Shown: positions 19,004-49,760 of the stretch, in pieces
Numbering within the stretch: position 1 is the stretch's first letter
How the letters are laid out: every line of letters begins with the position of its first letter
NCBI RefSeq assembly: GCF_007995085.1
Contig: NZ_VOQS01000003.1
Coordinates: 1,240,001-1,304,000, forward strand
Origin: Paraburkholderia azotifigens
GTDB taxonomy: Bacteria; Pseudomonadota; Gammaproteobacteria; Burkholderiales; Burkholderiaceae
Length of the DNA: 64,000 bases
Direction: 5' to 3'
Position numbers and translations under genes: made by a program
The notes under the pieces: model-generated
Database searches by the model: none
What the model was told of the DNA's origin: nothing
What the model saw: only the letters and a program-made list of their open reading frames with translations

Positions 19004-19020
19004 GGTGAGGCTTTTCGGGA
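19004..19020 (-). repeat. Dispersed iteron copy A
   Basis: GGTGAGGCTTTTCGGGA, the reverse complement of the origin iteron core. First of three copies in the 354-base gap between the exported barrel-like gene and the LysR gene; nothing else is recognised in this gap. A GTTTAC follows at 19026-19031. Confidence 0.8.
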
Positions 19021-19149
19021 GTTGTGTTTACGGTGAAGCATCGAGGCAATCCTTGCATCACCTGAAGCATAAAAACCCCTGAAAACAGGCATCTAAATGG
19101 CGCGCGCGATACGTTCGACGTTATCGGGGTGAATCGCGCATGCATCAAA

Positions 19150-19166
19150 GGTGAGCGTTTACGGGG
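19150..19166 (-). repeat. Dispersed iteron copy B
   Basis: GGTGAGCGTTTACGGGG preceded by AAA. With copy C it forms an inverted pair upstream of the LysR gene. It carries GTTTAC as do the copies at 11594-11648. Confidence 0.8.
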
Positions 19167-19189
19167 CGTCGAATGCCAGTACAACTGCC

Positions 19190-19206
19190 TCCCGAAAGCT
19201 CTCACC
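19190..19206 (+). repeat. Dispersed iteron copy C
   Basis: TCCCGAAAGCTCTCACC followed by TTT. The only distal copy in the same orientation as the origin array; it faces copy B across 23 bases. Confidence 0.8.
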
Positions 19207-19314
19207 TTTGCAACGCAACCGTGCGAACGGATCGGACGCGACGATCACCGCAAGCCCGCCGACGCCGTTCATAATCGCAACAACGCGATCCATCGCATGC
19301 AGCGGAAGGCGTCA

Positions 19315-20184
19315 ATGAACGATTCGAACCTGGACTGGAGCGACGTGCGCATCTTCCTCGCGATCGCCCGCTGCGGCACGCTGGGCGCGGCTGCGCGCCA
19401 ACTCGGCCAGACCCAGCCGACGATGGGCAGGCGGCTGCGCGCGCTCGAAGAAGCCCTCGGTCACACGCTCTTTCAGCGCACGGCCGAAGGCTTCGTGCTC
19501 ACCGACGAAGGTCACGCCGTGTTGATCTACGCCGAGCGCATGGAAGAAGAAGCGCACGCGTTCATGCGTTCGCTTGCGGGCAGCGAGCAGCAATTGTCGG
19601 GCAGCTTGCGCGTGTCGTCGTCGGACTGGTACGGCATCCATGTGCTGACGCCCGTGTTCGCCGGGTTTCTCGCGCGTCATCCGCAGATGTCGATCGAGCT
19701 GATTACCGATTCGCGGCGCTACAACCTCGCGCGCCGCGAAGCCGATCTGGTGTTTCGCATCACGCCGTTCGACGAGTCGGACGTCATCCAGCGCAAGCTG
19801 ATGCACATGGATTACGCGCTGTACGGACGCATCGATCTCGTCGCGCCCGTGCGCGGCGACGGCGCGGGCCAGTCGCTGATCACGATGGATAGCGCGTTCG
19901 GCGAACTGCCCGACGTCGCGTGGATCCGGCACATGCTGCCGAACGCGCACATTGCGTACGCCAGCAACAACCGCGGCGTGCAGGCGCGCATGTGCGCGGA
20001 AGGCGGCGGTTTCGCGGTGCTGCCGTGCCCGCTCGGCGACAACACGCCGGGACTGCGGCGCATCGATCTCGGCGAAACGCCGCCCGGCCGCGACGTATGG
20101 CTCGGCTACCACCGCGACCTGAAACGTCTCGCACGTCTGCGTGCCTTGCTCGATGTGGTGATCGAGCGCCTCGCTAACGTGTGA
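19315..20184 (+). CDS. LysR-family regulator
   Basis: 289 residues. Helix-turn-helix at the N-terminus (VRIFLAIARCGTLGAAARQL, then TQPTMGRRLRALEEALG) and a periplasmic-binding-type effector domain. Start at 19315 follows GGAAGG; the frame opening at 19129 would include the iteron pair. The nearest enzyme is the oxidoreductase at 20200-21186, which is convergent with it, not divergent, so the usual LysR target pairing is absent. The three iteron copies upstream lie where its promoter should be, so replication protein binding might affect it. Confidence 0.9.
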   Translation: MNDSNLDWSDVRIFLAIARCGTLGAAARQLGQTQPTMGRRLRALEEALGHTLFQRTAEGFVLTDEGHAVLIYAERMEEEAHAFMRSLAGSEQQLSGSLRVSSSDWYGIHVLTPVFAGFLARHPQMSIELITDSRRYNLARREADLVFRITPFDESDVIQRKLMHMDYALYGRIDLVAPVRGDGAGQSLITMDSAFGELPDVAWIRHMLPNAHIAYASNNRGVQARMCAEGGGFAVLPCPLGDNTPGLRRIDLGETPPGRDVWLGYHRDLKRLARLRALLDVVIERLANV

Positions 20185-20199
20185 GCCAATACAGCTTCA

Positions 20200-21186
20200 T
20201 CAATCGATCTCGACGACGATCTTGCCCCGTGCGGTGCGTTCCGTGATCGCGTCGTACGCACGTTCGGCCGAAGCGAGATCGAAGCGGCGCGGATCGAGAT
20301 GCGGCGTCAGCTTGCCTTGCTCGGCAAGACGCGTCGCCTCGGCCAGCATCTCGCCGTGATGCGCGCGATGCTTGCCGGTGAGCAGTGGATGCAGCGTAAA
20401 CACACCGGAATACGTGGCCTCGCGAAACGACAGCGGCGCGAGCGCGTGCGTACCCCAGCCGAGCGCGCTCACGACGTGACCGAAATGTTTGACGGCGGCG
20501 AATGACGCATCGAGCGTCGCCCCGCCAACCGTATCGACGACGAGATCGAAACCATCGCCTGCTGTCTGTTCGAAAACGTACTGTTCGACGGTGCGCGCCG
20601 CGTAATCGATCGGCGTCGCGCCGAAGCGCGCGACGAGATCCTGATCGCGCGCGCTTGCCGTCGCGAAGACCTGCGCGCCGAGCGCGCGAGCCAGCTGCAC
20701 CGACACATGCCCGACGCCGCCCGCGCCGCCTTGCACGAGCACGGTTTGACCGGCCTGCAGACGCGCGCGGTCGACGATTCCCGCATACGACGTGATGAAC
20801 GCGAGCGGCAGCGCGGCGGCTTCGCGCATCGACAGATTCGACGGCTTGTGCGCGAGCAGTTGAGCGTCGACGGAAGCATATTGCGCGAGCGAACCCTGAA
20901 TACCGCCGACGCCGCCCGTCATCCCATACACCTCGTCGCCGGCCTTGAAGCGCGTCACGTCCGCACCGACCGCGACGACCACGCCCGCGAGATCGATGCC
21001 GAGCACGAGCGGCAGCGGATGACGCGCGTGCGCCGCGTTCCCTGCACGAATCTTCGTGTCGAGCGGATTAAGGCCGCTGGCCTTGATCTGTACGAGCACT
21101 TCGCCGCGCGCGGGCTCGGGAATGGGCAGCGTCGTCGGTTCGAGCGGACCTTTGTACTGGCTGAGAACGAGGGCTTGCATGGACAT
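20200..21186 (-). CDS. Zinc-independent quinone-oxidoreductase-like NADP(H) dehydrogenase
   Basis: 328 residues, medium-chain dehydrogenase of the quinone oxidoreductase branch. GIDLAGVVVAVGADV near 80 and the nucleotide-binding VQGGAGGVGHVSVQLARALG near 155 are clear; no zinc-ligand Cys cluster is present. Such enzymes reduce quinones or enones with NADPH. Start at 21186 is set by GGAG six bases upstream. Convergent with the LysR gene with 15 bases between stops. Physiological substrate unknown. Confidence 0.88.
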   Translation of the reverse strand: MSMQALVLSQYKGPLEPTTLPIPEPARGEVLVQIKASGLNPLDTKIRAGNAAHARHPLPLVLGIDLAGVVVAVGADVTRFKAGDEVYGMTGGVGGIQGSLAQYASVDAQLLAHKPSNLSMREAAALPLAFITSYAGIVDRARLQAGQTVLVQGGAGGVGHVSVQLARALGAQVFATASARDQDLVARFGATPIDYAARTVEQYVFEQTAGDGFDLVVDTVGGATLDASFAAVKHFGHVVSALGWGTHALAPLSFREATYSGVFTLHPLLTGKHRAHHGEMLAEATRLAEQGKLTPHLDPRRFDLASAERAYDAITERTARGKIVVEID

Positions 21187-21352
21187 GATGAACTCCGGCA
21201 GAAGATGGATGCAGTTGACAGAAGACATCATCGGCGAATGCAGAAGCCCGGTAAATCAACGATTTAGCACGACGCCCAAACGTAAATGCATGGCGGCGTA
21301 TACCTGGGTATGCGAATGGAAGCCGGCAAGAACACAGGCAGCACAGGCTAAA

Positions 21353-21369
21353 GGTGAGAACCTGCGGGA
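21353..21369 (-). repeat. Dispersed iteron copy D
   Basis: GGTGAGAACCTGCGGGA, less conserved in the middle. Lies with copy E in the 369-base gap between the oxidoreductase start and the histidine kinase stop; no gene is seen in this gap. Confidence 0.65.
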
Positions 21370-21477
21370 GTGAGCGGAAAGCGTCGAGGAGGCGCACCGC
21401 CGGCCGCCGCAGACCCTTGCTGGATAAGGCTCCGCGGGCAGGCTCAAAAAGCTGGCGAGGCGCGGAGCGCGCTCAAT

Positions 21478-21494
21478 GGTGAGGCTTTGCGGGA
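21478..21494 (-). repeat. Dispersed iteron copy E
   Basis: GGTGAGGCTTTGCGGGA, 125 bases after copy D and in the same orientation; a half-copy CTCACCTTT facing it lies near 21530. Confidence 0.75.
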
Positions 21495-21555
21495 GCCAGG
21501 AAAAGTGACATCGCAGCGCATCGCACGGCTCACCTTTAGCGCGCGCCTGCTTACA

Positions 21556-23334
21556 TCAGACAAGACCGGCGATGTTGCGGCCGTCGCGATGCGAGAGCAC
21601 ATCGGCGAGCCGTTCCATCGAAACGGGCTTCGTCAGGTGATAGTCGAAGCCGGCGGCGAGCGCGCGCGACTTGTCGGATTCCGATGAGTAGCCAGTCAAT
21701 GCGATCAGGAACATGTGCGTGAGCGCCTCGTTCGATCGGATCGTGCGCGCTACTTCGAAGCCATCCATTTCCGGCATGCCGATATCGATGATGCCGACTT
21801 CCGGTAACTCTTTCGCCGCGAGCTTCACGGCGTCGCGTCCGCTACGCGCGACGATCACCTGATGACCTTCCAGTTCCAGCAGCAGATGCAGCGCGTCCAG
21901 CGCGTCGACGTTGTCGTCGACGAGCATGATGCGGCTCGGCGCGGCGCTGATTGCGGTCACCGGATCGTGTGCGCTCCGCGGCTCGCAATCGAGTATCGGC
22001 AGTTGCAGCGTGACGCGCGTGCCGTGACCGACGCCCTGGCTGTCGAGCGCAATCGTGCCGTCGTGCAGTTCGATGAGCCGCTTCGCGACCGCGAGGCCGA
22101 TGCCGAGTCCGCCTTCCGAGCGGTGCATGTTGGCCTGCGACTGCGCGAACAGCTCGAATACGTGGTCGAGTGCTTCGCGGCTCATGCCGACGCCGTTGTC
22201 CTCGATGACGATCGACACCATGCCGCCAGGCTCCGCGTCGTCCGTCTCGCCGCCGGCGTCCAGCCGCACGCGCAGCTTCAGCGTGCCGCCGACGGGCGTG
22301 TACTTCGCCGCGTTCGACAGCAGATTGCCGACCACCTGGCTCAGGCGCACATGATCGGCGCGCACGTAAACGGGCAGATCGAGCCCCTCGATTTCGAGCC
22401 GATGCTTGCGCGCGTCGATGTGATGCTTGAGCGCGGTAATCGCGTCGTAGACGATCTCGTTCAGCGAAGTGCGGCTGTACTTGATTGCGAGCTTGCCGTG
22501 CCGCAGACGCGCGGCATCGAGCAGATCGTCGACGAGCGTGCGCAACTGGCGCATCTGCCGTTGCGCGATGGCGAGCACGTCGGTGGCCTGGTCTTCGCCT
22601 GCGCAAAGCAGCTTGAGCGCGGCGATCGAACTGTCGATGGGCGCCATCGGATTGCGCAGTTCATGCCCGAGCATCGCGATGAATTCGTCGCGCCGGTGTG
22701 CCGCGTCTTCCAGCGCGCGCCGCGCCTGTTGCGCGGCGGCCGCTTCCGCTTCGGCGGCCTGTTGCGCGTCGAGCAGCGTGAGCGCGGCGCCTGCGAGCAC
22801 GGCGAGATTGCCGAGCAGGCGCACGTCTTCGCGATCGAAGCGATGCTCGTCGTGCGACGCGACCCAGATCGCGCCCAGCTGCTTCGAGTCCTGGCCGCGG
22901 ATCGGAATAGGCGTGATGATGCCTTCCGTCATGACGGCGCCTGCATCGCGCAAACTCTTGAAGAACGTGTGCGGCTCGACGAACAGTTGCGGCGCGCCGA
23001 GTTCGAGCGTCATGCCGCACGGACATTCGGCCCACGCGGTCGTTTTGCCTTCGAACCCCGCGCACGCACCGGCGACCGCGCGCCAGCGGAACACGGCGTT
23101 GCCTTTTGCGCTGGTTTCGAGCAGGCTGATGCCTGCGCTGCCCGCACGGCAGGCGGTGAGCGCCGCATCGGCGATGGCTTGCAGCAAGGTGTCGCGGCGG
23201 CCCGTTTGCGCGCCGGCTACGGTGACGAGGGTGTGGACTTCGGCTGCGTGATCCGGCGTGCGGGCCGGTCGGTCTTTCAGGTCGTCGGTGCGCAATACGC
23301 CCGCCCGGCGGGCGCTTTCGATGCCGTCGCTCAT
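21556..23334 (-). CDS. Hybrid sensor histidine kinase (GAF-HisKA-HATPase-REC)
   Basis: 592 residues, no membrane segment, so a cytoplasmic sensor. A GAF domain spans about 30-190. The phospho-acceptor His is in FIAMLGHELRNPMAP near 230; the ATP-binding domain shows NLLSNAAKYTP, IEDNGVGM and GGLGIGLAVAKRL; the C-terminal receiver (IMLVDDNVDAL, DIGMPEMDGFEVA, LTGY, LTKPV) is complete. The start is uncertain: an ATG at 23334 is used; a TTG at 23388 has been considered. No separate response regulator adjoins it, so output passes through the attached receiver or a distant partner. Confidence 0.92.
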   Translation of the reverse strand: MSDGIESARRAGVLRTDDLKDRPARTPDHAAEVHTLVTVAGAQTGRRDTLLQAIADAALTACRAGSAGISLLETSAKGNAVFRWRAVAGACAGFEGKTTAWAECPCGMTLELGAPQLFVEPHTFFKSLRDAGAVMTEGIITPIPIRGQDSKQLGAIWVASHDEHRFDREDVRLLGNLAVLAGAALTLLDAQQAAEAEAAAAQQARRALEDAAHRRDEFIAMLGHELRNPMAPIDSSIAALKLLCAGEDQATDVLAIAQRQMRQLRTLVDDLLDAARLRHGKLAIKYSRTSLNEIVYDAITALKHHIDARKHRLEIEGLDLPVYVRADHVRLSQVVGNLLSNAAKYTPVGGTLKLRVRLDAGGETDDAEPGGMVSIVIEDNGVGMSREALDHVFELFAQSQANMHRSEGGLGIGLAVAKRLIELHDGTIALDSQGVGHGTRVTLQLPILDCEPRSAHDPVTAISAAPSRIMLVDDNVDALDALHLLLELEGHQVIVARSGRDAVKLAAKELPEVGIIDIGMPEMDGFEVARTIRSNEALTHMFLIALTGYSSESDKSRALAAGFDYHLTKPVSMERLADVLSHRDGRNIAGLV

Positions 23335-23513
23335 GGTGTCGATCAAGTGTGGTGTGCAACGTTCCCCGCGTGTCTGCAGTGTCTGCAATTGGCAGGCCGA
23401 CCGTTATCAAAGAAGTATAGGCGTTGCATTCATATGATCGCGCCGGATTTTGCGGCGCCGGTATTGGTACGTTCCCTGCGTGTCAATCAGGCTCAGTCTT
23501 GTGGAGGAAAGCG

Positions 23514-23915
23514 ATGAACCAGCAAACAGCTTATGAAGGCGGATGCGCGTGCGGCGCGGTGCGTTTTCGCGCGCGCGGTGCGCCGGGTCGCGTGGGAATG
23601 TGTCACTGCATGACGTGTCGGCGCGTGCACGGATCGGCATTCGGTTCGTACGCGATTTTCAATCGCGACGAAGTCACGCTGTCGGGCAACACGCGCGAAT
23701 GGCGAAGCTCGGAGCATGGCAGGCGTCACTTCTGCCCTCTGTGCGGGTCGGTGGCGTTCATGGTCTACACGAACCGCGACGAGATCGCCGTGCCGATCGG
23801 CGCGTTCGATCAGCCGGGGTTGTTCGAGCCCGCGTATGAACTGTGGTGCAAGCGCAAGGAGCCCTGGTTGCCGAAGGGCGTGCGCCGGGAATACGACGAG
23901 GAGCGCGAGCACTGA
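23514..23915 (+). CDS. GFA-family (glutathione-dependent formaldehyde-activating-like) protein
   Basis: 133 residues. The metal sites of the GFA/CENP-V fold are all present: GGCACGAVRF, GMCHCMTCRRVHGS, then HFCPLCGS, seven Cys in the usual spacing. Start at 23514 follows GGAGGAAA. The family includes an S-hydroxymethylglutathione synthase, but most members have not been tested and may act on other thiol adducts. Stands alone between the kinase and a small convergent gene. Confidence 0.9.
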   Translation: MNQQTAYEGGCACGAVRFRARGAPGRVGMCHCMTCRRVHGSAFGSYAIFNRDEVTLSGNTREWRSSEHGRRHFCPLCGSVAFMVYTNRDEIAVPIGAFDQPGLFEPAYELWCKRKEPWLPKGVRREYDEEREH

Positions 23916-24027
23916 CTTGTACGCGCTGGGAAAACGCGGGCCTTGACGTGCGTTCCTTGACGTTCGTTACGTGCGTCGCTGTCGGAACGGGCGGCGTCCG
24001 GCATACGGCCCGCGTCGCTTGCAGCCG

Positions 24028-24180
24028 CTATTGATGATGCTTCTTCGGAATCTTCGCGCCTGACTTGCGCGCCTGATTCAACGCGATCGCGACGGACTGC
24101 TTCTGCGATTTGCCTGCCTTCTTTTCGGTCTTGATGTTGTGACCGATGGTTTGCTTCGATGTGCCTCGCTTCAGTGGCAT
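24028..24180 (-). CDS. Small basic protein, DUF6496-like
   Basis: 50 residues read from the sequence; ATG at 24180 with AAGGAGA seven bases before it. The pattern MPLKRGTSKQTIGHNIKTE, KSQKQSVAIALNQARKSG is the well-known short Lys-rich protein of proteobacteria and their phages annotated DUF6496. It is highly basic, so nucleic-acid contact is possible. The family name is given from memory with moderate certainty; the gene itself is sure. Confidence 0.85.
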   Translation of the reverse strand: MPLKRGTSKQTIGHNIKTEKKAGKSQKQSVAIALNQARKSGAKIPKKHHQ

Positions 24181-24405
24181 GTCGATCTCCTTTCCAGGGC
24201 GCATGACGTTGCGCCGCGACGAATCGCGGGCGACGTACGACGTATATCGAAACGAGCATGCGCCGTTCCCGCAGCCTTCTTCTTCGTGAGCACAACGATT
24301 GAACCCGCTTGGCGTTTGCGTTTCGCGCCTGCATGAAGTGTCCGGAGAAAAGCGGTACGTCGCTTGCTGAAAGGTTGTCTGGCACGGTGAATCCAGGAGC
24401 CTCTT

Positions 24406-24714
24406 GTGAACACGGTTTCGATCGCGCGCAGCGCGACGGCGGCAATTTTTGCCGCCGCAGCGGGCGTCGGCTATGGGCAGACGGGCTGGCATCCCGCTAC
24501 GCAGAGCGACACGGCGGCGCCCGGCGCGACATCGGGCGAACTCAAAACGCCGCAGCCGCGCCAGTCGTCGGCGCCCGGCATGTCCGGCGCGGCGGCATCG
24601 GACCCCGGCATTCCGGACACGGGCCGCACGCGCAGCCTCCAGGGCGCGCACGGCACGCACAGCAACGGCAAGCCCGCCACGAAGCGCAACACGGGCGAAG
24701 GCAACGTCCATTGA
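24406..24714 (+). CDS. Small exported Ala/Gly/Pro-rich protein (hypothetical)
   Basis: 102 residues, GTG start with AGGAG seven bases before. The first 25 residues look like a signal peptide (SIARSATAAIFAAAAGVGYG). The rest is low-complexity, rich in Ala, Gly, Thr, Pro and His, with no cysteine and no fold that I can name. Likely periplasmic or surface. Followed at 113 bases by another small gene on the same strand. Confidence 0.55.
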   Translation: MNTVSIARSATAAIFAAAAGVGYGQTGWHPATQSDTAAPGATSGELKTPQPRQSSAPGMSGAAASDPGIPDTGRTRSLQGAHGTHSNGKPATKRNTGEGNVH

Positions 24715-24826
24715 CGTTCGCCGTCCACCGCATTCGTCCGCGTTCGATGCGCGAGCGGATGCGCCATTTCAATCTGCATGTCGGCAAAAACGCCGGGTCC
24801 GGCATGCACAGCACGGGAGTTGCAAG

Positions 24827-25108
24827 ATGACAAGGCCACGGATGATTTTCCCGAAAGTGCGCAATGCTGTGGCCTCGAAACCCGAGTCGCAGAACGACTA
24901 TCAGATCTACGCAACCTACCGCCGCACGACGGAGGGTTCGTATATGGGACAGCTAAAGGTCGTGCGCAAGACGGATGGCCGTCTGCTGTTTCCGTTCACT
25001 GGCGCGCCCGACATCGGCCCGTACACCGACGGCGATCAGGCACGCGAAGCCGCGCATCGTCACGGCGAAACGATCGTGCAGTCGGATCTCGACAATCCCG
25101 AGCCGTAA
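24827..25108 (+). CDS. Small conserved protein (Burkholderiaceae type)
   Basis: 93 residues; start at 24827 after GGGAG. The core ESQNDYQIYATYRRTTEGSY, then GQLKVVRKTDGRLLFPFTGA and DIGPYTDGDQAREAA suggests a small beta-rich cytoplasmic domain. I recognise it as a widespread short Burkholderia protein without a known function. The larger frames that enclose it lack ribosome sites and codon bias and are not used. Confidence 0.7.
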   Translation: MTRPRMIFPKVRNAVASKPESQNDYQIYATYRRTTEGSYMGQLKVVRKTDGRLLFPFTGAPDIGPYTDGDQAREAAHRHGETIVQSDLDNPEP

Positions 25109-25160
25109 AGCGGTCGCCCTTCGACTTGCAGTTCACCGGCAACTTCCTGCTACCGCTGCC

Positions 25161-25166
25161 TATAAT
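25161..25166 (+). promoter_or_regulatory. Consensus -10 element before the SDR gene
   Basis: TATAAT, 26 bases before the ATG at 25192. The -35 position (GGCAAC region) is poor. GGAGG follows just before the start codon. Confidence 0.45.
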
Positions 25167-25191
25167 CGCGAACGGACAACGGAGGCAGGCG

Positions 25192-25932
25192 ATGAAGCAT
25201 AAGAGCGCAATGGTGATCGGCGTCGGCGCCGAACCCGGTCTCGGTGCGGCGCTGTGCAGGAAGATCGCCGCAAACGGCTATCACGTGTATGTCGCGGGGC
25301 GCACGCAGGCGAAACTCGATACGGTGACGGACGGCATTGTGTCGCGCGGCGGATCGGCTGAATCGTTTGCGATGGACGGCACGTCCGAAGCCGACATCAT
25401 GCGTCTGTTCGACAAGGCGATGTCTCCACCCGACGATATCGACGTACCTTCGCTCGTCGTCTACAACGTCGGCAATAACCGGCATGTGCCGTTTCGCGAC
25501 CTGACGGAAGCGCAGATGCAGGACTTCTTGCGCTCTGGGCCGATCGGCGGATTCCTGGTCGGACGCGAAGCTGCGCGGCGTCTCGCGCCGCTCGGCAGGG
25601 GCACGGTGATCTTCACGGGCGCATCGGCGAGTCTGCGCGGCAAGCCGGGTTTCGCGCATTTTTCGGCGGCGAAAGCCGGGTTGCGGATGGTCGCGCAAAG
25701 CATGGCGCGCGAGTTCGGGCCGCTTGGGCTGCATGTCGCGCATGTGGTGATCGACGGCGGCATCGACGGCGAGCGCCTGCACAGTTCGCGCCCGCAGGCC
25801 GCCGCCGAGCGTGGTGAAAACGGGCTGCTGAACGTCGACGCCATCGCCGACGCATACTGGCAGCTTCATCTCCAGCATCCGTCCGCATGGACGCACGAAA
25901 TCGATCTGCGTCCTTTCAAGGAATCGTTCTGA
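25192..25932 (+). CDS. Short-chain dehydrogenase-like protein with Phe at the catalytic Tyr
   Basis: 246 residues of SDR fold. The cofactor loop is VIGVGAEPGLGAALC, the NNAG-type turn is YNVGNN, the catalytic Ser is in IFTGASASLRG. The YxxxK motif reads HFSAAKAGLR, so Phe replaces Tyr while Lys is kept. Some SDR branches share this change and may lack ordinary dehydrogenase activity or use a different residue. Start at 25192 after GGAGG. Convergent with the HpnR-like gene, 22 bases between stops. Confidence 0.88.
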   Translation: MKHKSAMVIGVGAEPGLGAALCRKIAANGYHVYVAGRTQAKLDTVTDGIVSRGGSAESFAMDGTSEADIMRLFDKAMSPPDDIDVPSLVVYNVGNNRHVPFRDLTEAQMQDFLRSGPIGGFLVGREAARRLAPLGRGTVIFTGASASLRGKPGFAHFSAAKAGLRMVAQSMAREFGPLGLHVAHVVIDGGIDGERLHSSRPQAAAERGENGLLNVDAIADAYWQLHLQHPSAWTHEIDLRPFKESF

Positions 25933-25954
25933 AGGCTGTATTCGGCGTGTGAAA

Positions 25955-27683: not shown

Positions 27684-27700
27684 GGTGAGGGTTTTCGGGA
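27684..27700 (-). repeat. Dispersed iteron copy F
   Basis: GGTGAGGGTTTTCGGGA, with AAA before and GA after. It lies between hpnR and the MFS gene, both read on the bottom strand. Copies F, H and K are identical over all 17 bases. Confidence 0.85.
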
Positions 27701-31419: not shown

Positions 31420-31436
31420 GGTGAGCGTTTTCGGGA
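31420..31436 (-). repeat. Dispersed iteron copy G
   Basis: GGTGAGCGTTTTCGGGA, followed by GCAG, in the 220-base gap between the ankyrin gene start and the stop of the next bottom-strand gene. Confidence 0.85.
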
Positions 31437-36203: not shown

Positions 36204-36220
36204 GGTGAGGGTTTTCGGGA
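36204..36220 (-). repeat. Dispersed iteron copy H
   Basis: GGTGAGGGTTTTCGGGA in the gap between the convergent mazG-like and yceI genes, six bases after the mazG-like stop. Identical to copies F and K. Confidence 0.85.
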
Positions 36221-40271: not shown

Positions 40272-40288
40272 AGGTGAGCCTATTCGGG
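40272..40288 (-). repeat. Dispersed iteron copy I
   Basis: GGTGAGCCTATTCGGGA followed by GCC. It adjoins the 5' break of the VOC fragment. Two degenerate pieces, GGTGAGTGAG near 40231 and GGTGAGTTGCCTT near 40300, lie beside it. Confidence 0.8.
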
Positions 40289-40338
40289 AGCCGCTCAACG
40301 GTGAGTTGCCTTGCAACCCGCGCGGCACTGTAGCAAAA

Positions 40339-40355
40339 GGTGAGGTTATCCGGGA
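40339..40355 (-). repeat. Dispersed iteron copy J
   Basis: GGTGAGGTTATCCGGGA, 67 bases after copy I, a spacing also frequent in the origin array. It ends 23 bases before the stop of the membrane protein gene. Confidence 0.8.
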
Positions 40356-40990: not shown

Positions 40991-41024
40991 CGCGCTTGCC
41001 TCAGGTCTGCGCTCATTTCGGCGC

Positions 41025-42419: not shown

Positions 42420-42687
42420 AGCTCAGTCTCCGGAAGATGTTGCGATGCGGCACGCGAATCGCGTGCATCGTCCACGAAGAACGATGCGTGCGTCTGAGCT
42501 TTTCACTGTAGGCAATTTCGCGGCGGCTTGCGGGATTGATGAGACTCCACAGAGCGGTTCGGATGCACCTGCGCCCGTTCGCATGCGATAGCGTCGATTC
42601 AGGATGCATGCACGCCGCGCAGATTAGAATGATGCGATTCCACCGTCTTTTTTGGCCCTTTCCCAGCCACACAGCCGCACTTCGATC

Positions 42688-43506
42688 ATGCGTTCATGGC
42701 GTCTCGACCGTCCCGTTTCGCAAGGGCAGCTGGATCTCAGCCGCGCGACGGGACTCGTGTCGTCGATCGGCAGCGACGACTCGAATGCGCTCGCCGCCGA
42801 AGTGCTGAAGCTGCTCGGCGACATCGCCGCGATCTCGCAGTGCACGATCTTCGCGTATGAGTTCGGCAACCGGCCGCGCACGGTGTCGGTGGCGGATCAT
42901 CGGGGCGGACGCTTTCTGCGCGATGTCGCCGATACCTACGCGCGCCATTTCTATGCGCTCGACGGCAATCAGAAGATCGTCTCGTCGGCGCGCAACGACA
43001 AGCCCGGCTCGACGCTCGTGCTGCATCAGCAGACGAGCGAAGACATCCTCAACGAAGCGTATCGCGCAGCGTGCTATCAGCAGCCGAACGTGTCGGACCG
43101 CGTGTCGCTGCTCGTGCAGCCGACGGCCGATATCTGGCTCTCGGTGAACCTGTATCGCGATCGACGTTTCGGCAATTACCATCCGCGCGAAATCGCGTTG
43201 ATCGAAGCGATGGCGCCGTTGATCGCGCATGCAGCCAAGCATCATTACGCGATCTGCGGGCAGCGCGACATGGCGATTTCGCATCTGATGCTTGCGCGCG
43301 TGCGTGGCCTCTGTCCCGAACTGTCGAAACGCGAACTCGACGTGCTGACAGGCGTGCTCGAAGGACGCACCGCGCAGGAGATCGGCGACACGATGGGCGT
43401 CAAGGCGACGAGCGTCGTCACGTATCAGAAGCGCGCGTTCCGGAGGCTCGGCATTTCGAGCCAGCGGCAGCTGTTCGCGTTGTGCATCGGGCCGGGCAAG
43501 GTCTGA
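42688..43506 (+). CDS. LuxR-family regulator
   Basis: 272 residues. The N-terminal 190 residues are a sensory domain without a family I can name; the helix-turn-helix near 210-265 is of the LuxR/FixJ class (LSKRELDVLTGVLEGRTAQE, then IGDTMGVKATSVVTYQKRAF). No receiver or autoinducer-binding motif is seen. It lies 144 bases before the MFS-hydroxylase genes on the same strand and may control them; similar LuxR proteins often precede MFS-type catabolic operons in this group. Confidence 0.9.
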   Translation: MRSWRLDRPVSQGQLDLSRATGLVSSIGSDDSNALAAEVLKLLGDIAAISQCTIFAYEFGNRPRTVSVADHRGGRFLRDVADTYARHFYALDGNQKIVSSARNDKPGSTLVLHQQTSEDILNEAYRAACYQQPNVSDRVSLLVQPTADIWLSVNLYRDRRFGNYHPREIALIEAMAPLIAHAAKHHYAICGQRDMAISHLMLARVRGLCPELSKRELDVLTGVLEGRTAQEIGDTMGVKATSVVTYQKRAFRRLGISSQRQLFALCIGPGKV

Positions 43507-43650
43507 CGCGCGCGGCTGACTCCATCGCTCATTCCACTGATTTATCCGCGTTTTCCCCAGGCCGGAACGGCCGTCTGTTTGTACCCAAAATGAGGACAGG
43601 CGGCGTGCAGCCGCGCTCCATACTGCGACGCAAACATCGGAGACAACGGT

Positions 43651-45012
43651 ATGGAATCCTCTTCGCAAGCCGGCGCGCTGCATGCGGCGCCCGCCGCTAC
43701 CGCGCCGCAAACGCACGAACAGCCCGTGATCGCCAAGGTGTCGCGGCATCTGCTGTGGTTTCTGTTCGTGCTGTTCTTCTTCTCGTTCCTCGACCGCATC
43801 AACATCGGCTTCGCCGGTCTGACGATGATGAAGGATCTCGGCCTCACGAGTACGCAGTTCGGTCTCGCGACGACGCTCTTCTATGTCGCCTACATCGCGT
43901 TCGGCATTCCCGGCAACGTCGTACTGGCGCGCATCGGTGCGCGCAAGTGGATCGGCACGATCATGATCGCGTGGGGCATCGCCTCGACGGCGACGATGTT
44001 CGCAAGCAGCCCCGGCACGCTGTATGTGCTGCGCGTGCTGGTCGGCGTGACGGAAGCGGGCTTTTTGCCGGGCATCCTGCTGTATCTGACTTACTGGTTT
44101 CCTGCCGCGTATCGGGCGCGCGCCAACGCGCTCTTCATGATCGCGATGCCCGTGACGGCGGCCGTCGGCTCGGCACTGTCGGGTTTCATTCTCGGGCTCG
44201 ACGGCACGATGGGTCTGAAGGGCTGGCAATGGCTCTTTCTGCTCGAAGGCCTGCCGTCGGCGATTCTCGGCCTCGCGGTGTATGCGTATCTCGACGACGG
44301 TCCGCAGCAGGCGCGCTGGCTCGACGACGAAGAAAAGCGCGCGCTTGCCGCTGCGCTCGCGGCGGAGCATCGGCAGGACGTCGCCGTGCAGACAAAAAGC
44401 GGCGCGCAAGGCATCGTTGGCGAATTACTGTCGCCTGTGGTCGTGAAGTTCGCGATTGCGTACTTCTGTCTCGTGAATACGCTGGCGATGGTTGCCGTGT
44501 GGACGCCGCTGATCGTGAAGAGCTTCAGCGCCGACGCGAGCAATCGCACGATCGGCCTGCTCGCCGCGATTCCGCAGATCTGCACGATCGTCGCGATGAT
44601 CTGGTGGGGACGCCGCTCGGACCGCAGGCAGGAACGCAAATGGCATCTGATGATCCCGATGCTGTTCTCCGCCGCCGGCTGGCTGTGCACCGCGTATTCG
44701 GCTAACCCGGCCGTTCGCATGCTCGGCGTGTGCCTCGCGTCGGCCGGTTCGTACACGGCGATGTCGATCTTCTGGACCACGCCCGATCACGCATTGAGCT
44801 TCCGCGCACGCGCCATCGGCATTGCCGTGATCAACGCGACAGGCAACATCAGTTCGGCGCTGAATCCGCTGATCGTCGGCTGGCTGAAGGACGCAACGCA
44901 TAGTTTCTCGTCGGGGCTGCTGTATTCGGCGGTGCTGCTGGTGATCGGCGTGATCGTCGTGACGCTGCTGCCGATGGACAAACGCGAAGCGCCGCGCACA
45001 CGCGCCGCTTGA
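43651..45012 (+). CDS. MFS transporter, anion:cation symporter type
   Basis: 453 residues with 12 membrane segments. The ACS/phthalate permease branch is recognised by FSFLDRINIGFAGLTMMKDL, then AYIAFGIPGNVVLARIGARK and EAGFLPGILLYLTYWFPAAY. It should import an organic acid, probably an aromatic one, since the next gene codes for an aromatic hydroxylase (24 bases later). A ribosome site GGAGACAAC precedes the ATG. Regulators at both ends (LuxR, MarR) fit an inducible catabolic unit. Confidence 0.92.
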   Translation: MESSSQAGALHAAPAATAPQTHEQPVIAKVSRHLLWFLFVLFFFSFLDRINIGFAGLTMMKDLGLTSTQFGLATTLFYVAYIAFGIPGNVVLARIGARKWIGTIMIAWGIASTATMFASSPGTLYVLRVLVGVTEAGFLPGILLYLTYWFPAAYRARANALFMIAMPVTAAVGSALSGFILGLDGTMGLKGWQWLFLLEGLPSAILGLAVYAYLDDGPQQARWLDDEEKRALAAALAAEHRQDVAVQTKSGAQGIVGELLSPVVVKFAIAYFCLVNTLAMVAVWTPLIVKSFSADASNRTIGLLAAIPQICTIVAMIWWGRRSDRRQERKWHLMIPMLFSAAGWLCTAYSANPAVRMLGVCLASAGSYTAMSIFWTTPDHALSFRARAIGIAVINATGNISSALNPLIVGWLKDATHSFSSGLLYSAVLLVIGVIVVTLLPMDKREAPRTRAA

Positions 45013-45035
45013 AGGTATCGATTCAGGAGCATTGG

Positions 45036-46730
45036 ATGAACAGGCAATTCAAACCGTATCCGTTCACGGCGAAGCAATACGCGGCGCGCGTGCCGCAACT
45101 GAAGCAGGGCGTCGACGCGAAGCGCCATGCGGTGACGATCGTCGGCGGCGGGCCGGTCGGTCTCGCGGTCGCGCTCGGTCTCGCGAATCACGGCGTGCCG
45201 TGCGTGCTGATCGAAGCGGACGATTCCGTGTGCTATGGCAGCCGCGCGATCTGCATTTCGCGTCGCAGCCTGGAGATCATCGAGCGGCTCGGCGCCGTCG
45301 ACGGCTTTCTGAAGACGGGCTTGCCGTGGACGGGCGGACGCAGCTTCTATCGCGACACGGAAGTGCTGCACTTCACGATGCCGCAAGACGAAAACCAGAA
45401 GCTGCCGCCGATGGTCAATCTCGCGCAGTACCACATCGAACAGTTTCTGCTCGACGCGGCGGAGAAGCGCGCCGATCTGATCGATATCCGCTGGCAGACG
45501 CGCGTGAAGTCGATCGATTCGCGCGCCGACGGCGCGACGCTGCAACTCGCCACGCCCGATGGCGACTACGCGCTGGAAACCGACTGGGTCGTTGCCGCCG
45601 ATGGCGGGCGCAGCACGATCCGCGAAGCGCTTGGCTTGCAGTTGCAGGGCACGAGCTACGAAGGCCGCTATGTGATCGTCGATATCGAATTGCAAAGCGA
45701 TCGGCCGACGGAACGTCTCGCGTATTTCGATCCTTCGTCGAATCCGGGTTCGACCGTGCTCGTGCACAAGCAGCCCGACAACGTGTGGCGTATCGACTAT
45801 CAGCTGCGCGACGGCGAGGACGCGGAGCAGGCAGTGAAGCCTGAAAACGTGATGCCGCGCGTGCAGAGCCTGCTCGACATGATGGGCGAGAAGGGCGAGT
45901 GGTCGCCCATCTGGATCACGATCTACAAGGCCAATGCGCTGACGCTCGAACGCTATCGACACGGCCGCGTGATGTTCGCGGGCGATGCTGCGCATCTCGT
46001 GCCCATCTTCGGTGTGCGCGGCGCGAATTCGGGTATTGACGATGCCGACAATCTCGCGTGGAAACTCGCGTTCGTCGTCAAGGGGCTTGCGTCGGCATCG
46101 CTGCTCGACAGCTATTCCGACGAGCGCGTCGCGGCCACGCACGAGAACCTGAGCTACGGCACGAAGAGCACCGAGTTCATGGCGCCGCCGTCGTTCGCGT
46201 TCGATCTGATGCGCAAAGCCGTGTTGAGTCTTGCCGTGAAGCATCCGGGCGTGCGCTCGCTGATCAATCCGCGGCAGACGTCGGCGATCACGTACGCGCA
46301 TTCGCCGCTGAATGTCGCCGATGGCGATGCGTTTGCATCGGGGCCGGTGCCGGGCGCGGTGCTGGCGGAGTATCCGTTGACGATGGCGGAAGGCGGGCAT
46401 GCGCGCGAAGCGCATCTGACCGATCTGGTCGGCGCGCGCTTTACTGCGTTGTATTTCAGCGAAGAGGGCGAGGTGCCCGACAGTCTCAACGCGCTCGTCC
46501 CCGCGCTGCGCGAGCGCGGCGTGCCGTTCAAGGTGGCGTCGCTCAGCGCGCGTTTGCATCCGCAAGCGAAGGGCGTGCACGCGTGGGATCACACCGGGCG
46601 CATCTTCGAGCGATACGACGCGCAGCCGGGCACGGTGTATCTGGTGCGTCCGGATGGACATGTGCTGGGACGCTGGCGCGCTGCGAGCGCCGCCGATATC
46701 GAAGCGGCGATCATGCGCGCATTGGCGTGA
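45036..46730 (+). CDS. FAD-dependent aromatic hydroxylase (MhpA-like monooxygenase)
   Basis: 564 residues, class A flavin monooxygenase. The dinucleotide loop VTIVGGGPVGLAVALGLANH lies near 35, the DG motif VVAADGGRSTIREALGL near 190, and the GD motif VMFAGDAAHLVPIFGVRGAN near 315. The C-terminal thioredoxin-like domain (450-564) is that of MhpA/PheA-type enzymes. It would hydroxylate a phenolic acid such as 3-hydroxyphenylpropionate, but the substrate is not fixed by sequence; no ring-cleavage gene is close. Start at 45036 after AGGAG; the upstream ATG at 45009 overlaps the MFS stop and is less likely. Confidence 0.9.
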   Translation: MNRQFKPYPFTAKQYAARVPQLKQGVDAKRHAVTIVGGGPVGLAVALGLANHGVPCVLIEADDSVCYGSRAICISRRSLEIIERLGAVDGFLKTGLPWTGGRSFYRDTEVLHFTMPQDENQKLPPMVNLAQYHIEQFLLDAAEKRADLIDIRWQTRVKSIDSRADGATLQLATPDGDYALETDWVVAADGGRSTIREALGLQLQGTSYEGRYVIVDIELQSDRPTERLAYFDPSSNPGSTVLVHKQPDNVWRIDYQLRDGEDAEQAVKPENVMPRVQSLLDMMGEKGEWSPIWITIYKANALTLERYRHGRVMFAGDAAHLVPIFGVRGANSGIDDADNLAWKLAFVVKGLASASLLDSYSDERVAATHENLSYGTKSTEFMAPPSFAFDLMRKAVLSLAVKHPGVRSLINPRQTSAITYAHSPLNVADGDAFASGPVPGAVLAEYPLTMAEGGHAREAHLTDLVGARFTALYFSEEGEVPDSLNALVPALRERGVPFKVASLSARLHPQAKGVHAWDHTGRIFERYDAQPGTVYLVRPDGHVLGRWRAASAADIEAAIMRALA

Positions 46731-46771
46731 TGCATTGGCTTGACGAACCGAATCAACGAAAGGAGAACGCG

Positions 46772-46951
46772 ATGACCGAAGCAGAACTCGACGTCGTCTA
46801 CACGCGGCTGTGCAAGACGATGACTCAACTCGGCGAGGGAAATGCGCCGCTGTTTCTCGCGCGCTTCGCGCTGCTCGCAATCGAGAAGATCGGCGATGCC
46901 GATGTGTCGTTGGGGTTGATCGACGCGGCAGGCGATGGAGCGGGTAGCTAG
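46772..46951 (+). CDS. DUF2783 small protein
   Basis: 59 residues, read from ATG at 46772 after AAAGGAGA. The sequence (LDVVYTRLCKTMTQLGEGNA, LFLARFALLAIEKIGD) is the DUF2783 pattern. This family is often encoded right after MhpA-like FAD monooxygenases, as here (41 bases), so it probably helps that enzyme. The role is not known. Larger frames in this stretch are shadows. Confidence 0.88.
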   Translation: MTEAELDVVYTRLCKTMTQLGEGNAPLFLARFALLAIEKIGDADVSLGLIDAAGDGAGS

Positions 46952-46998
46952 CGATACCTGTTTAGTGGAGACGACGCGCTGCTTGCGGCGCGTCCGTT

Positions 46999-47499
46999 TC
47001 ACTCCGCTTCACGCTCTTCGCCAGTCTTTTCGCTTGCCGCCAGTTCCCTGATCAACGCATCGACAGCCACATACAGGTCGTCGACGACCTTCGCGCCGAC
47101 CTGCTTCTCCAGCGCCTGATACTCCGCTTCCAGCAACGGCTTCATCCGCTCGACGACCTCCGCGCTCTGCGCCGTGAGCGACACGCGCACGCGCCGCTGA
47201 TCGTCTTCGAAGCGCTCTTTCGTCACGTGGCCGAGATCTTCCATGCGTGCGAGCACGCCGGCGAGACTCGGACTCGAGATCGTGCACAGCGCGCACAATT
47301 GACGCGGCTCCAGCGGCCCGTTTTCGTGCAACGCACGAATGATGCGCCACTGCTGCTCGGTGAGTCCCTGCGCGGTCAGCAGCGGACGAAAGCGCGCCAT
47401 CATAAGTTCGCGCGCACGCAGCAGCAGCATCGGCAGATTGCGATGCATCGCGTGCGGCGTGGCAGTATGAGAGTCAATGTGAGAGCGGGACGTCACCAT
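46999..47499 (-). CDS. MarR-family regulator (HpaR type)
   Basis: 166 residues. The winged helix is clear near 40-110 (LTEQQWRIIRALHENGPLEP, then LCTISSPSLAGVLARMEDLG, then KERFEDDQRRVRVSLTAQ). It resembles HpaR, the repressor of homoprotocatechuate breakdown. It is convergent with the MFS-hydroxylase-DUF2783 operon, so it may repress that operon, as in related gene clusters. The start is either 47499 or 47448; only a weak ribosome site is seen for the first. Confidence 0.9.
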   Translation of the reverse strand: MVTSRSHIDSHTATPHAMHRNLPMLLLRARELMMARFRPLLTAQGLTEQQWRIIRALHENGPLEPRQLCALCTISSPSLAGVLARMEDLGHVTKERFEDDQRRVRVSLTAQSAEVVERMKPLLEAEYQALEKQVGAKVVDDLYVAVDALIRELAASEKTGEEREAE

Positions 47500-47787
47500 C
47501 GATTCGATGCCTGAGAAAAGCGATTCGCTAGCATATAAGTAAATCGGCTTCGACGACAGCCGCGCACTACGGCTTTTCTTTAGGGCGCCTGGTATTTTCG
47601 AAGGCTTCGGCGGAATTTTGACGCTGGCTAGAATGAGGAAGTCGCGCGGCTGTGCAGTTGGAAAACAGGCCGACTGTCGCGTCCAGCCGACGAACGCGCC
47701 CAGGAGAAACCCTCGGAGGTATTTTCCCGACCGCGTGGTCGGTTTATTCTACGCAACCCGGCGTATTTTTTGAGATTGAGGACACCC

Positions 47788-48750
47788 GTGTACGTCCATC
47801 ACCAGTTCTTCCACGATGCCGATGCGCACGCGGCCGCGCTGCGGGGCTGGGATCAGCGTTACGACCAGATCGGCTCGGGCGCGTTTCGCAGCGCGGTGAA
47901 GCAGATCGAGCTGGACGGCGTGCAGGTTTTCCACGAGTCGGCCAATCTGCGTGTCGTGCAGCGCGGACAGTTGCCCGTCAATCATATGACGTTTGGTATT
48001 CCGCTCGCGGGAGCGGGCGCGTTCTCGTTCGGCGGCGTGCGCATCGATCGCGGCGGCTTCGTGATGGCGCAAGGCGGCACGCCGTTCGAATTCCATTCGC
48101 CTGATGACATGGCGCTGATCGGCGTCGTCATCGATTCGGACATGCTGCAAGGCGTCGCCGATTGCGCGGGCGTCGATCTCGACGACAGCCTGTTTCGCCG
48201 GACCGTGATCGACATTCCGAATGCCGCGTGCACGCGCGCGGGCTTGCAACTCGCGACGCTGATCGAGCGCGTGCTCGCGCAGCCCGATGGTTTCAGCGAT
48301 CTGCACGCGCAGACCGCGGTGCGCAATCAGGTGAACGAGGCGCTCGTCGATCTGCTCGCGTATCACGTGCCCACGTCATCGAACCGGCTGACGTATGCAT
48401 GTCAGGCCGACATCGTGCGGCGCATTCATGACTTCGTGATCAACCATCCCGAAGAGCCGTTCGACATCCAGAGTCTCTGTACGCAATTGCGCGTGAGTCG
48501 GCGCACGGTGCAGAACAGCTTCCAGGCGGTCGTGCAAACCAATCCGCTGACCTACGTGCGGTCGTTGCGGCTCGCCCAGGTTCGGCGTCTGCTGCTCGAC
48601 ACGCGGCAGGCGGACCTGTCCGTCAGCGATGCCGCCGCGCAATGGGGCTTCGTGCATCTCGGGCATTTCGCCAATGCGTACAAGGCGCAGTTCGGCGAGT
48701 TGCCTTCGCACACGGCGCGCAGAACATCGCGCGTGAGCGTGGCGCGCTGA
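47788..48750 (+). CDS. AraC-family regulator
   Basis: 320 residues from a GTG at 47788, chosen since TTGAGGAC is well spaced from it; the TTG at 47770 lacks one. The C-terminal double helix-turn-helix is AraC-like: FDIQSLCTQLRVSRRTVQNS near 230 and LSVSDAAAQWGFVHLGHFAN near 285. The N-terminal half is a cupin-like sensing domain with IGSGAFRSAVKQIEL and MTFGIPLAGAGAFSF. It resembles EutR-type regulators. No target gene is adjacent in the same direction; the HD gene is convergent. Confidence 0.88.
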   Translation: MYVHHQFFHDADAHAAALRGWDQRYDQIGSGAFRSAVKQIELDGVQVFHESANLRVVQRGQLPVNHMTFGIPLAGAGAFSFGGVRIDRGGFVMAQGGTPFEFHSPDDMALIGVVIDSDMLQGVADCAGVDLDDSLFRRTVIDIPNAACTRAGLQLATLIERVLAQPDGFSDLHAQTAVRNQVNEALVDLLAYHVPTSSNRLTYACQADIVRRIHDFVINHPEEPFDIQSLCTQLRVSRRTVQNSFQAVVQTNPLTYVRSLRLAQVRRLLLDTRQADLSVSDAAAQWGFVHLGHFANAYKAQFGELPSHTARRTSRVSVAR

Positions 48751-48780
48751 GCCTCCAGAAGGTCGGCATTCAATCGGAAA

Positions 48781-48809
48781 AAAAAATCCGCGTTCGCGAG
48801 AACGCGGAT
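48781..48809 (-). terminator. Terminator of the HD-domain gene
   Basis: Stem ATCCGCGTTC/GAACGCGGAT (48786-48809) with loop GCGA; the A-run on its left reads as T on the bottom strand. It lies 76 bases after the HD gene stop. Confidence 0.85.
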
Positions 48810-48885
48810 CTAAAGGCACGCTTGAGCGGAGACTGCAAGCGGCTTGATCGTCACACCCGTGACGAGGAGGTAGCCCGGATCGCGC

Positions 48886-49575
48886 TTACGCGTGGTTGTG
48901 CGCGGGATTGCGGCACACGCCCGCCTGCACGTTCGAATCGTTCCACGCGGAACCGAGGATGATGCTGCAGAAGTTCAGGCGTTTGTATTCCGGATCCTTC
49001 AGCGCGAGCACGTCGGCCTTGACGTTGCCGAACGTCGTCAGCGGCTTGTGCTTCGTGCCGTTCGCGAAGGCATCGATGATGTTTTCCTTGAAGCTCTCGC
49101 CGCGCGGATGCGCCGCGACGACCAGCTTGCGGTCTTCCGTCGAGAACTCGTCGTAGGCGAGACCCAGCACGTCCATTTCGACACCCGCCGTCACCAGCGC
49201 GACGACAGGCTTTTTGTACTGCGGGATGCCCGGCGTCGTATGCAGCGCGATCGCGTCCCACACCATGTCGATGTCGTTTTCGCCGATGCCATAGCCCTGC
49301 AGAAAATTGCGCGCGGCATTCGCGCCGTCCACTTCGAAGCGATCGTGCGCGCTGCTGTATTTCTCCATCAGACCCATGTCATGGAACATTGCGCCGATGT
49401 ACAGCAACTCCGGGTCGTACTTCAGCTGCTTGCGCTCGCCCGTCAGCGCGCCGAACAGAAACACGCGACGCGAGTGGTGATAGAGCAGATCGGTCTCGGT
49501 GTCGCGCACCAGCTGCGTCGCTTCGCGCGCCATCTTGCTGTCGGGGATCTTGATGCCTGCGATGATTTCGCTCAT
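48886..49575 (-). CDS. HD-domain hydrolase (cyanamide-hydratase-like)
   Basis: 229 residues. The HD metal motif is spread over LLYHHSRRVFLFGAL near 31, GAMFHDMGLMEKYSS near 61, and FEVDGANAARNFLQ near 80, with WDAIALHTTPGI near 105. This arrangement matches the family of cyanamide hydratase-like and inositol-oxygenase-like HD proteins, which act on small nitrile or cyclic substrates; the true substrate is not known. Ribosome site GGAGAACC precedes the ATG. Monocistronic with a good terminator. Confidence 0.9.
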   Translation of the reverse strand: MSEIIAGIKIPDSKMAREATQLVRDTETDLLYHHSRRVFLFGALTGERKQLKYDPELLYIGAMFHDMGLMEKYSSAHDRFEVDGANAARNFLQGYGIGENDIDMVWDAIALHTTPGIPQYKKPVVALVTAGVEMDVLGLAYDEFSTEDRKLVVAAHPRGESFKENIIDAFANGTKHKPLTTFGNVKADVLALKDPEYKRLNFCSIILGSAWNDSNVQAGVCRNPAHNHA

Positions 49576-49743
49576 TTGCGGTTCTCCAGAACTTGATCGA
49601 CGGTGGCCGTTCGCTGTTTCGAAGTGTGCGATCGGCGGGTGATCAAAGTGTAGGGAGAGCCCCTGCGCGCGGCAAAAGCATTGATACGCGTGATGCTGCC
49701 AACCGCGCGCGGTTTTCTGCCAACCTCGCCGAGACGCGCTTGA

Positions 49744-49760
49744 GGTGAGGGTTTTCGGGA
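49744..49760 (-). repeat. Dispersed iteron copy K
   Basis: GGTGAGGGTTTTCGGGA, the farthest copy found, about 40 kb from the origin array. It lies between the HD gene start and the LysR stop, and is identical to copies F and H. Confidence 0.85.

Follow-up and report, generated by a model that had tools for sequence, protein, structure and literature searches.

Copies of the origin iteron dispersed around the likely second-chromosome origin of Paraburkholderia azotifigens are conserved and may restrain re-initiation

Why should the recognition sequence of a replication origin recur far outside that origin? The question is raised by a stretch of 64,000 nucleotides of Paraburkholderia azotifigens DNA (the window, C3:1240001-1304000, where C3 is the 3.22 Mb contig NZ_VOQS01000003.1 of the five-contig, 9.70 Mb genome G000), which contains the initiator gene repA, an array of origin iterons and, scattered beyond them, further copies of the same repeat. 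C3 is likely the second chromosome of this genome, because parA, parB, a Rep3 initiator, the iteron array and a KfrA-like gene sit together. We propose, with moderate confidence, that the dispersed 21-bp elements are RepA sites kept by selection outside the origin, likely for the negative control of initiation, and that they probably help to decide when the second chromosome starts copying.

The dispersed element has the form AAAGGTGAG-NN-TTTT-CGGGAG. Scanning with a matrix trained on the 18 array copies revealed 18 non-array sites between C3:1233477 and 1382249; real sites scored at least 18 bits, compared with 13.2 bits for the best noise in 155 kb and 13.0 bits for the best score in five Markov-generated sequences. 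Within the window, 34 matches at up to three mismatches were found against 2.6 expected. Seventeen distal sites lie on the kfrA side of the origin, 16 on the + strand and one (19190) on the - strand, and a single site, on the - strand, lies on the repA side. The first-pass annotation had reported eleven copies dispersed over 30 kb. All eleven are present, ten of them on the + strand and thus opposite to the array as it had stated, but the extent was too small: the sites run from 15 kb out on the repA side to 134 kb out on the kfrA side, approximately 150 kb in all. The copies in the window are as follows.

11608..11624, + strand: extra-origin iteron, first of a pair, its partner starting 24 bp further on (pattern and matrix scan; not in the first-pass annotation)
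11632..11648, + strand: extra-origin iteron, second of the pair (pattern and matrix scan; likewise new)
19004..19020, + strand: extra-origin iteron (scans; kept in the relatives G001 and G005)
19150..19166, + strand: extra-origin iteron (scans; orthologue alignment)
19190..19206, - strand: extra-origin iteron, sole kfrA-side copy reading toward the origin (inverted arrangement kept in G001 and G005)
21353..21369, + strand: extra-origin iteron, the weakest at 19.2 bits (scans; orthologue alignment)
21478..21494, + strand: extra-origin iteron (scans; orthologue alignment)
27684..27700, + strand: extra-origin iteron (scans; orthologue alignment)
31420..31436, + strand: extra-origin iteron (scans; orthologue alignment)
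36204..36220, + strand: extra-origin iteron, 6 bp past a stop codon and between convergent genes (kept in G001; G005 flank unalignable)
40273..40289, + strand: extra-origin iteron, pair member, earlier placed at 40272 (scans; orthologue alignment)
40339..40355, + strand: extra-origin iteron, pair member (scans; orthologue alignment)
49744..49760, + strand: extra-origin iteron (scans; orthologue alignment)

Five further copies lie beyond the window, at C3:1233480, 1342091, 1342259, 1381958 and 1382230. The identity of the copies at 27684, 36204 and 49744, noted earlier, extends to a fourth at C3:1342091, whereas those at 19190 and 21353 have two and three mismatches to the stated consensus, yet score 23.0 and 19.2 bits. 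The claim that no copy lies in a coding frame holds within the window, with a reservation for 19150 and 19190, which fall inside the first 26 codons of the longest open reading frame (ORF) of a LysR-type gene (GTG at 19129). The true start of this gene is probably further downstream, because the helix-turn-helix domain begins only at residue 71. Outside the window the claim fails, as the copy at C3:1233480 is inside hpnD. Promoter or terminator function was rejected, in agreement with the first-pass annotation, since the sites have no fixed relation to flanking genes and several are between convergent genes; at 36204 such genes flank the site and therefore no promoter is expected. A mobile repeat was rejected as well: a search of iteron-anchored sequence, which also sought a site class of the RctB 39-mer type, showed that in 200 distal sites conservation ends with the 21-bp unit.

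The genome scan showed how strongly the element is concentrated around its origin. The pattern GGTGAGNNTTTNCGGGA, used for G000 and for the other genomes, gave 14 exact non-array matches in G000, of which 12 were within 135 kb of repA and two on contig C5; the largest contig had none. At one mismatch there were 29 non-array matches (17 near repA, two elsewhere on C3, nine on C5 and one on C1, the largest contig); compared with a narrower pattern used earlier for G000, this common pattern adds one near match (reading toward the origin), four on C5 and one on C1. The narrower pattern at up to two mismatches matched 83 times, as against 24 times for its reversed form. An equal density on chromosome 1 or far from the origin, the outcome that the first-pass annotation had set against its own proposal, did not appear. 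Nine closed or near-closed genomes, among them G000 and, from the one-mismatch listing for the same-genus set, only G011, gave 209 non-array matches at one mismatch, of which 163 lay no more than 165 kb from repA, 14 elsewhere on the same replicon and 32 on other replicons. The reversed pattern gave 0-2 matches per genome in eight of the nine. Thus, as expected of titration sites, the origin recognition sequence recurs on the same replicon near the origin, with a minority of matches elsewhere.

To look for a counterpart of crtS, a conserved initiator site on chromosome 1 that acts as trigger, iteron-class sequence at up to one mismatch was compared: G000 had one match on its largest contig and the eight other genomes had 0-4 on the presumed chromosome 1. 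One candidate for a chromosome 1 iteron was rejected. It is shared by G129, G068 and G002, scores 11.5-12.3 bits and lies in long open frames; its other strand can be read as a conserved peptide, and the sharing is therefore probably a coding coincidence.

L246 ~2000, L247 ~2030 and L248 ~1994: GGTGAGGATTTCCGGCA (chromosome 1 of G129 and of G068, and contig C13 of G002, respectively)

Good chromosome-2 iterons (19-26 bits) were also seen on C5 of G000 at 201216, 2522720 and 2525322, away from the C5 rep gene at 1994520. In G007, repeats of the GGTGAGGNTTTCCAGGA type occur at C4:691975-692090 and on several other contigs; they may belong to another repeat family, one that only resembles the iteron, and weak tandem clusters in G006, G012 and G003 may be similar. 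Some of these repeats in the four genomes were counted in the tallies of sites, orientation, logos and pairing given below.

The dispersed sites are directional. In the nine genomes, 133/163 origin-flanking matches read away from the origin, comprising 100/118 on the kfrA side and 33/45 on the repA side, the latter count being inflated because tandem clusters were tallied site by site. When sites with core scores of at least 14 bits were taken from 12 genomes, 158/182 on the kfrA side were on the + strand, compared with 57.5% for permuted matrices in four genomes, a comparison that serves as a guide only, as the cut-offs differ (14 versus 10 bits), permuted matrices were run in 4 of the 12 genomes and orthologous sites are not independent. 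For G000 alone, 16 of 17 kfrA-side sites against 57.5% corresponds to a p of about 0.001. Strand composition was rejected as the cause, the kfrA-side GC skew being only 0.012-0.038 in four genomes and the permuted matrices placing 57.5% on the + strand. The earlier suggestion of extra initiator sites near a secondary-chromosome origin is thus upheld as to concentration and conservation, but its orientation rule has to be recast: whichever arm they lie on, the sites mostly read away from the origin. They are also clustered, as 108 of 144 distal sites in 11 genomes (G008 was dropped for having too few) have a neighbour within 400 bp, compared with 22.7 expected under uniform placement.

The arrangement was also seen in relatives. 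The RepA of the window, 100% identical with that of Paraburkholderia sp. Tr-20389, has orthologues of 91-97% identity in all 12 same-genus genomes and of 77-95% in 49 genomes besides G000 in a family sample of 120 (genera g1, g16, g18, g20, g22 and g33; we infer that g20 is Burkholderia, and G003 belongs to both sets). All 12 same-genus genomes had 20-42 iteron matches at one mismatch, versus 0-3 in the control. Array copies numbered 13-18 in each of the 12 oriented origin neighbourhoods, and on the kfrA side each had a pair at 3.0-3.6 kb as well as further sites; in all of them a pair occupies the place of 11608/11632, downstream of the kfrA-like gene. A repA-side site 12-18 kb out was found in 10/12 (G006 was not reached, and the G012 stretch is without hpnD). 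Apart from one 27-bp match, the DNA flanking the kfrA-side sites of G000 could not be aligned with seven genomes at a greater distance, yet these genomes carry sites of their own in that zone, most of them with the same direction.

Evidence of selection came from the orthologous sites, 14 of which were aligned in G001 and 12 in G005. The specified GGTGAG/CGGGA bases were identical at 152/154 positions in G001 and 132/132 in G005 (98.7-100%), compared with 1235/1690 and 1089/1514 (72-73%) for the noncoding flanks; the TTT positions were identical at 40/42 and 31/36, and the three free positions of the iteron at 28/42 and 20/36. The base changes in orthologous distal sites resemble those tolerated within the array. 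The 21-bp logos of 200 distal and 197 array copies were nearly equal, which is partly built in, as the sites were chosen by an array-trained matrix. The comparison of sequences indicates that the dispersed sites are under selection, because their specified bases are conserved far above noncoding flanks, and so beyond neutral expectation as predicted for titration sites, and because rare arginine codons are kept in hpnD.

The latter point concerns the repA-side copy at C3:1233480, inside hpnD (TIGR03465, E 1e-106; gene calls were made with a simple script rather than a standard gene finder). Here the iteron codes for V-R-I-F-G as GTG AGA ATT TTC GGG; codon use in the gene calls of the region is 4.6% AGA+AGG for Arg, 2.8% ATA for Ile and 9% GGG for Gly. 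In 57 genomes, the iteron Arg codon was AGG in 34, AGA in 21, AGC in one and CGG in one (AGA/AGG in 55/57), whereas the Arg four codons upstream was AGR in 0/57. The AGC of G123 changes Arg to Ser with the iteron kept, and the CGG of G087 breaks the iteron. Among 11 aligned hpnD genes, only the iteron Arg uses AGR out of 20 fully conserved Arg columns. The 57 were drawn from 64 rows, seven being dropped: G151:C18, G119:C25, G041, G128 and G000:C5 were judged to be other genes, whereas the other two, G036 and G056, could be hpnD with CGC as the codon; their genera have no close RepA. Identity as hpnD rests on a hidden Markov model for G000, on tblastn for eight including G000 and on a common peptide motif for the rest; in an order-wide search for that motif, all copies lay within the family. 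In four g18 genomes (G066, G029, G135 and G127), hpnD is on the kfrA side, 34-61 kb out, and its iteron still reads away from the origin. In G118, hpnD is 178 kb away and reads toward the origin.

Which protein would bind these sites? The origin locus in the window contains the following features.

7103..8452, - strand: RepA, a Rep3-family initiator of 449 amino acids (Pfam PF01051, E 5e-11; PF21205, E 9e-10)
8521..8537, no strand: proposed RepA operator, an inverted repeat TCACC-N7-GGTGA with an iteron half-site (motif upstream of repA)
8573..9982, all on the - strand: origin iteron array, 18 copies of GGTGAG-NN-TTTN-CGGGA with up to three mismatches, spacing mostly irregular
9877..9982, - strand: right end of the array, degenerate iterons with a pitch of ~22 bp, probable core iterons (sequence inspection)
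10000..10400, no strand: A+T-rich stretch, candidate unwinding element (GC 40-48% per 100-base window, versus 41-64% in array windows)
10211..11572, + strand: KfrA-like protein gene, longest ORF (TTG 10211; in-frame ATG 10369; Pfam PF11740, E 8e-19)
4919..5984, + strand: four parS-like sites, before parA and between parA and parB (1-2 mismatches to the parS consensus)

Matrix matches in the right end of the array begin at 9874, 9896, 9941 and 9963, and the A+T-rich stretch overlaps the start of the longest kfrA ORF. Compared with solved structures, RepA gave a single match, the pi protein (2nra, E 0.004). The locus has the make-up of a Rep3-type origin, with a Rep3/WH1-WH2 initiator gene adjoining direct repeats and an inverted repeat with an iteron half-site upstream of that gene. 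The latter, as TCACC-N6/7-GGTGA, was found 83-87 bp upstream of repA in 80/80 loci and in 0/640 control windows. In the F plasmid, RepE works at iterons as a monomer, whereas as a dimer it binds inverted repeats that precede repE (PMC13028717). The Rep proteins of third replicons (33-34% identical) are accompanied by iterons of the form GGTANCNNTTTATGGGG and the Rep of the G000 plasmid C2 by iterons of the form GGTAACCATCTTGGGGA, and therefore the iteron varies with the Rep. No match to the G000 KfrA was found in these paralogous Rep loci (third replicons and the C2 plasmid). Judged by such sequence relationships, the dispersed sites are very probably RepA iterons, because the operator shares the GGTGA half-site and the iterons of the paralogous Reps are related to this one but distinct from it. 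Unlike a ParB site (parS), the iteron is no palindrome, and the parS-like sites are separate from the iterons; the four at 4919..5984 are likely the centromere of the same replicon as repA. Two more parS-like sites (GTTTAGGCGCATAAAC) lie at 52856-52871 and 52924-52939 (+ strand), approximately 44 kb from the origin and far from the parAB cluster, and at the matching place there are three copies in G001 and one in G005.

Replicons of other kinds offered a natural comparison. Four g16 genomes of 1.1-1.2 Mb carry RepA (77-81%) on replicons of 61-72 kb with the array present, and the matrix scan of these replicons found no site above 18 bits (rounded) outside it. As the larger g16 genomes G065 and G118 do have distal sites, loss from the small replicons is likelier than primitive absence. 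G036 (Rep 40-41% identical) has a second local cluster, most of which reads toward the origin, at 6-7 kb from the start of rep. The third replicons of g20 gave a different picture: 7/8 of their origins contain two chromosome-2-type iterons (20.0-26.8 bits), 33-34 bp apart and 1.64-1.76 kb upstream of rep; the sequence around them aligns poorly, with gaps, and is therefore probably noncoding. G092 is without the pair.

L198 12242-12299 and L202 12508-12564: third-replicon iteron pairs, also present in L217, L218, L220, L221 and L222

This suggests that the chromosome-2 initiator may act at the third-replicon origin, in a form of cross-talk between replicons. On the G000 plasmid C2, two weaker chromosome-2-like iterons (~19 bits, 23 bp apart) were observed 3.2 kb upstream of rep (L201 13770 and 13793).

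Negative control through these sites could work as follows. Initiation would take place at the 18-copy array, and the forks would then duplicate 18 more sites within 135 kb. At 33 kb/min, the replication speed reported for B. cenocepacia c1 and c2 (PMC4948915), 135 kb would be copied in ~4 min, so that the total of RepA sites would soon be doubled. The doubled sites would draw free RepA under the initiation threshold and re-initiation would be restrained; RepA on the distal sites, mostly close pairs, may also bridge to the array. A plasmid-type origin would thereby have been helped to become a once-per-cycle origin. RepA binding, titration and the effect on timing are the parts of this account that we infer. 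Several points weigh against it. Neither the orientation bias nor the pairing is required by simple titration, and 46/209 non-array matches in the nine genomes are far off or on other replicons. Loss of site-bearing DNA alone could explain the absence from the small replicons. The outgroup chromid G037 (Rep 41% identical) has an array and only two further sites in the 100 kb scanned, both within 6 kb of the rep start, so that not every replicon of this kind needs dispersed sites. Moreover, deletion of the V. cholerae chrII-10 site alone gave no growth phenotype (PMC3937223).

The pairing and the direction are the starting points of two other explanations. RepA on paired distal iterons might loop to the array and close the origin, with the sites organizing an origin domain, rather than titrate the initiator; the excess of close neighbours (108/144 versus 22.7 expected) speaks for such bridging, as does the published F model in which RepE loops incC and origin iterons (PMC13028717). 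There is, however, no fixed geometry, and unalignable relatives have different sites in the same zone. The handcuffing loops known in cis are also shorter than the distances here, which reach ~150 kb, and we regard bridging in place of titration as possible but somewhat unlikely. Direction, in turn, would make sense if iteron-bound RepA were remodelled, displaced or activated by a fork coming from one direction, the sites acting as a clock or a recycling device. The 133/163 matches reading away from the origin, the 158/182 kfrA-side sites on the + strand against 57.5% for permuted matrices, and the hpnD copy, which still reads away when on the other arm in four genomes, are all consistent with this. 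Since 30/163 read toward the origin, including the conserved inverted 19190, since hpnD of G118, 178 kb out, does the same, and since we know of no polar activity of a Rep-iteron complex, we consider fork-polar sites unlikely. A bolder combination would have direction-coded iterons read by the fork, with RepA remodelled according to fork direction, and with the same initiator acting at the third replicon through the iteron pair there, so that replicon 2 would relay to replicon 3. Remodelling of this kind would explain the away-reading on both arms, the hpnD copy kept despite rare codons and the absence from plasmid-sized replicons, and we offer the combination as a tentative, rather doubtful idea.

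The remaining explanations fare worse. The position of the kfrA-like gene between the array and the first distal pair brings to mind another binder, such as the KfrA-like protein in nucleoid organization, but the proposed repA operator contains an iteron half-site and paralogous Rep loci without a KfrA match have related iterons in the same place, making this very unlikely. That RepA represses or activates neighbouring genes is highly improbable: although several sites are in upstream regions, at least five (11608, 11632, 36204, C3:1342091 and C3:1342259, by the script gene calls) are between convergent genes, and the sites of distant relatives adjoin unalignable DNA. Iterons can spread via recombination, and the copies might on that ground be functionless relics of duplicated origin DNA or chance matches; the base-level selection, and the exclusion of chance by the pattern and matrix scans, leave hardly any room for this.

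Selected RepA sites serving negative control, the reading that we favour, have their nearest counterpart in Vibrio, and the titration analogy drawn in the first-pass annotation proved the best of those compared. On V. cholerae chromosome 2, copies of the RctB iteron occur in a 74-kb span starting ~40 kb from oriII and have been proposed to be early-duplicated titration sites (PMC3937223). Both are iteron-type secondary chromosomes with extra copies on the same chromosome; unlike the RctB sites, those described here belong to a single site class with 18 copies; they are directional, come mostly in pairs and are kept across several genera. The same replicon family includes B. cenocepacia c2, whose iterons are also found elsewhere, including a cluster 140 kb away (Du et al. 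2016, legend of a supporting table, PMC4948915); G129 and G068 have tandem clusters that agree with this, 148-151 kb from repA. The G129 cluster (L171 5314-5591, on C2 ~148 kb from repA) is a tandem iteron cluster at 23-bp multiples and is probably the second c2 cluster of Du et al. The passages on B. cenocepacia in that paper do not analyse distribution, direction, conservation or function. F incC likewise has iterons outside the core origin and exerts negative control by titration and/or looping (PMC13028717), but it is a single local cluster downstream of repE, in contrast with a dispersal over 150 kb. The DnaA boxes and datA of E. coli (as described in PMC3937223) are also initiator sites away from the origin that limit re-initiation; there the initiator is another one, the boxes are spread across the whole chromosome and datA is one locus.

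Among open papers, judged by titles and the beginnings of abstracts, none mentions titration sites, direction or iterons inside genes for this family. Thus the extent, the direction, the intragenic copy and the iteron pair at third-replicon origins are new, whereas the second cluster in B. cenocepacia was known. The system offers approximately 18 conserved, base-mapped sites, a natural contrast, since the 61-72 kb versions have none of them, and perhaps a connection of replicon 2 with replicon 3; as the sites can be removed or inverted individually, the titration, bridging and fork-polar models are directly testable. The passage from a plasmid-type origin to a once-per-cycle chromosome origin is best understood in Vibrio, and Paraburkholderia and allied genera show what appears to be a parallel solution.

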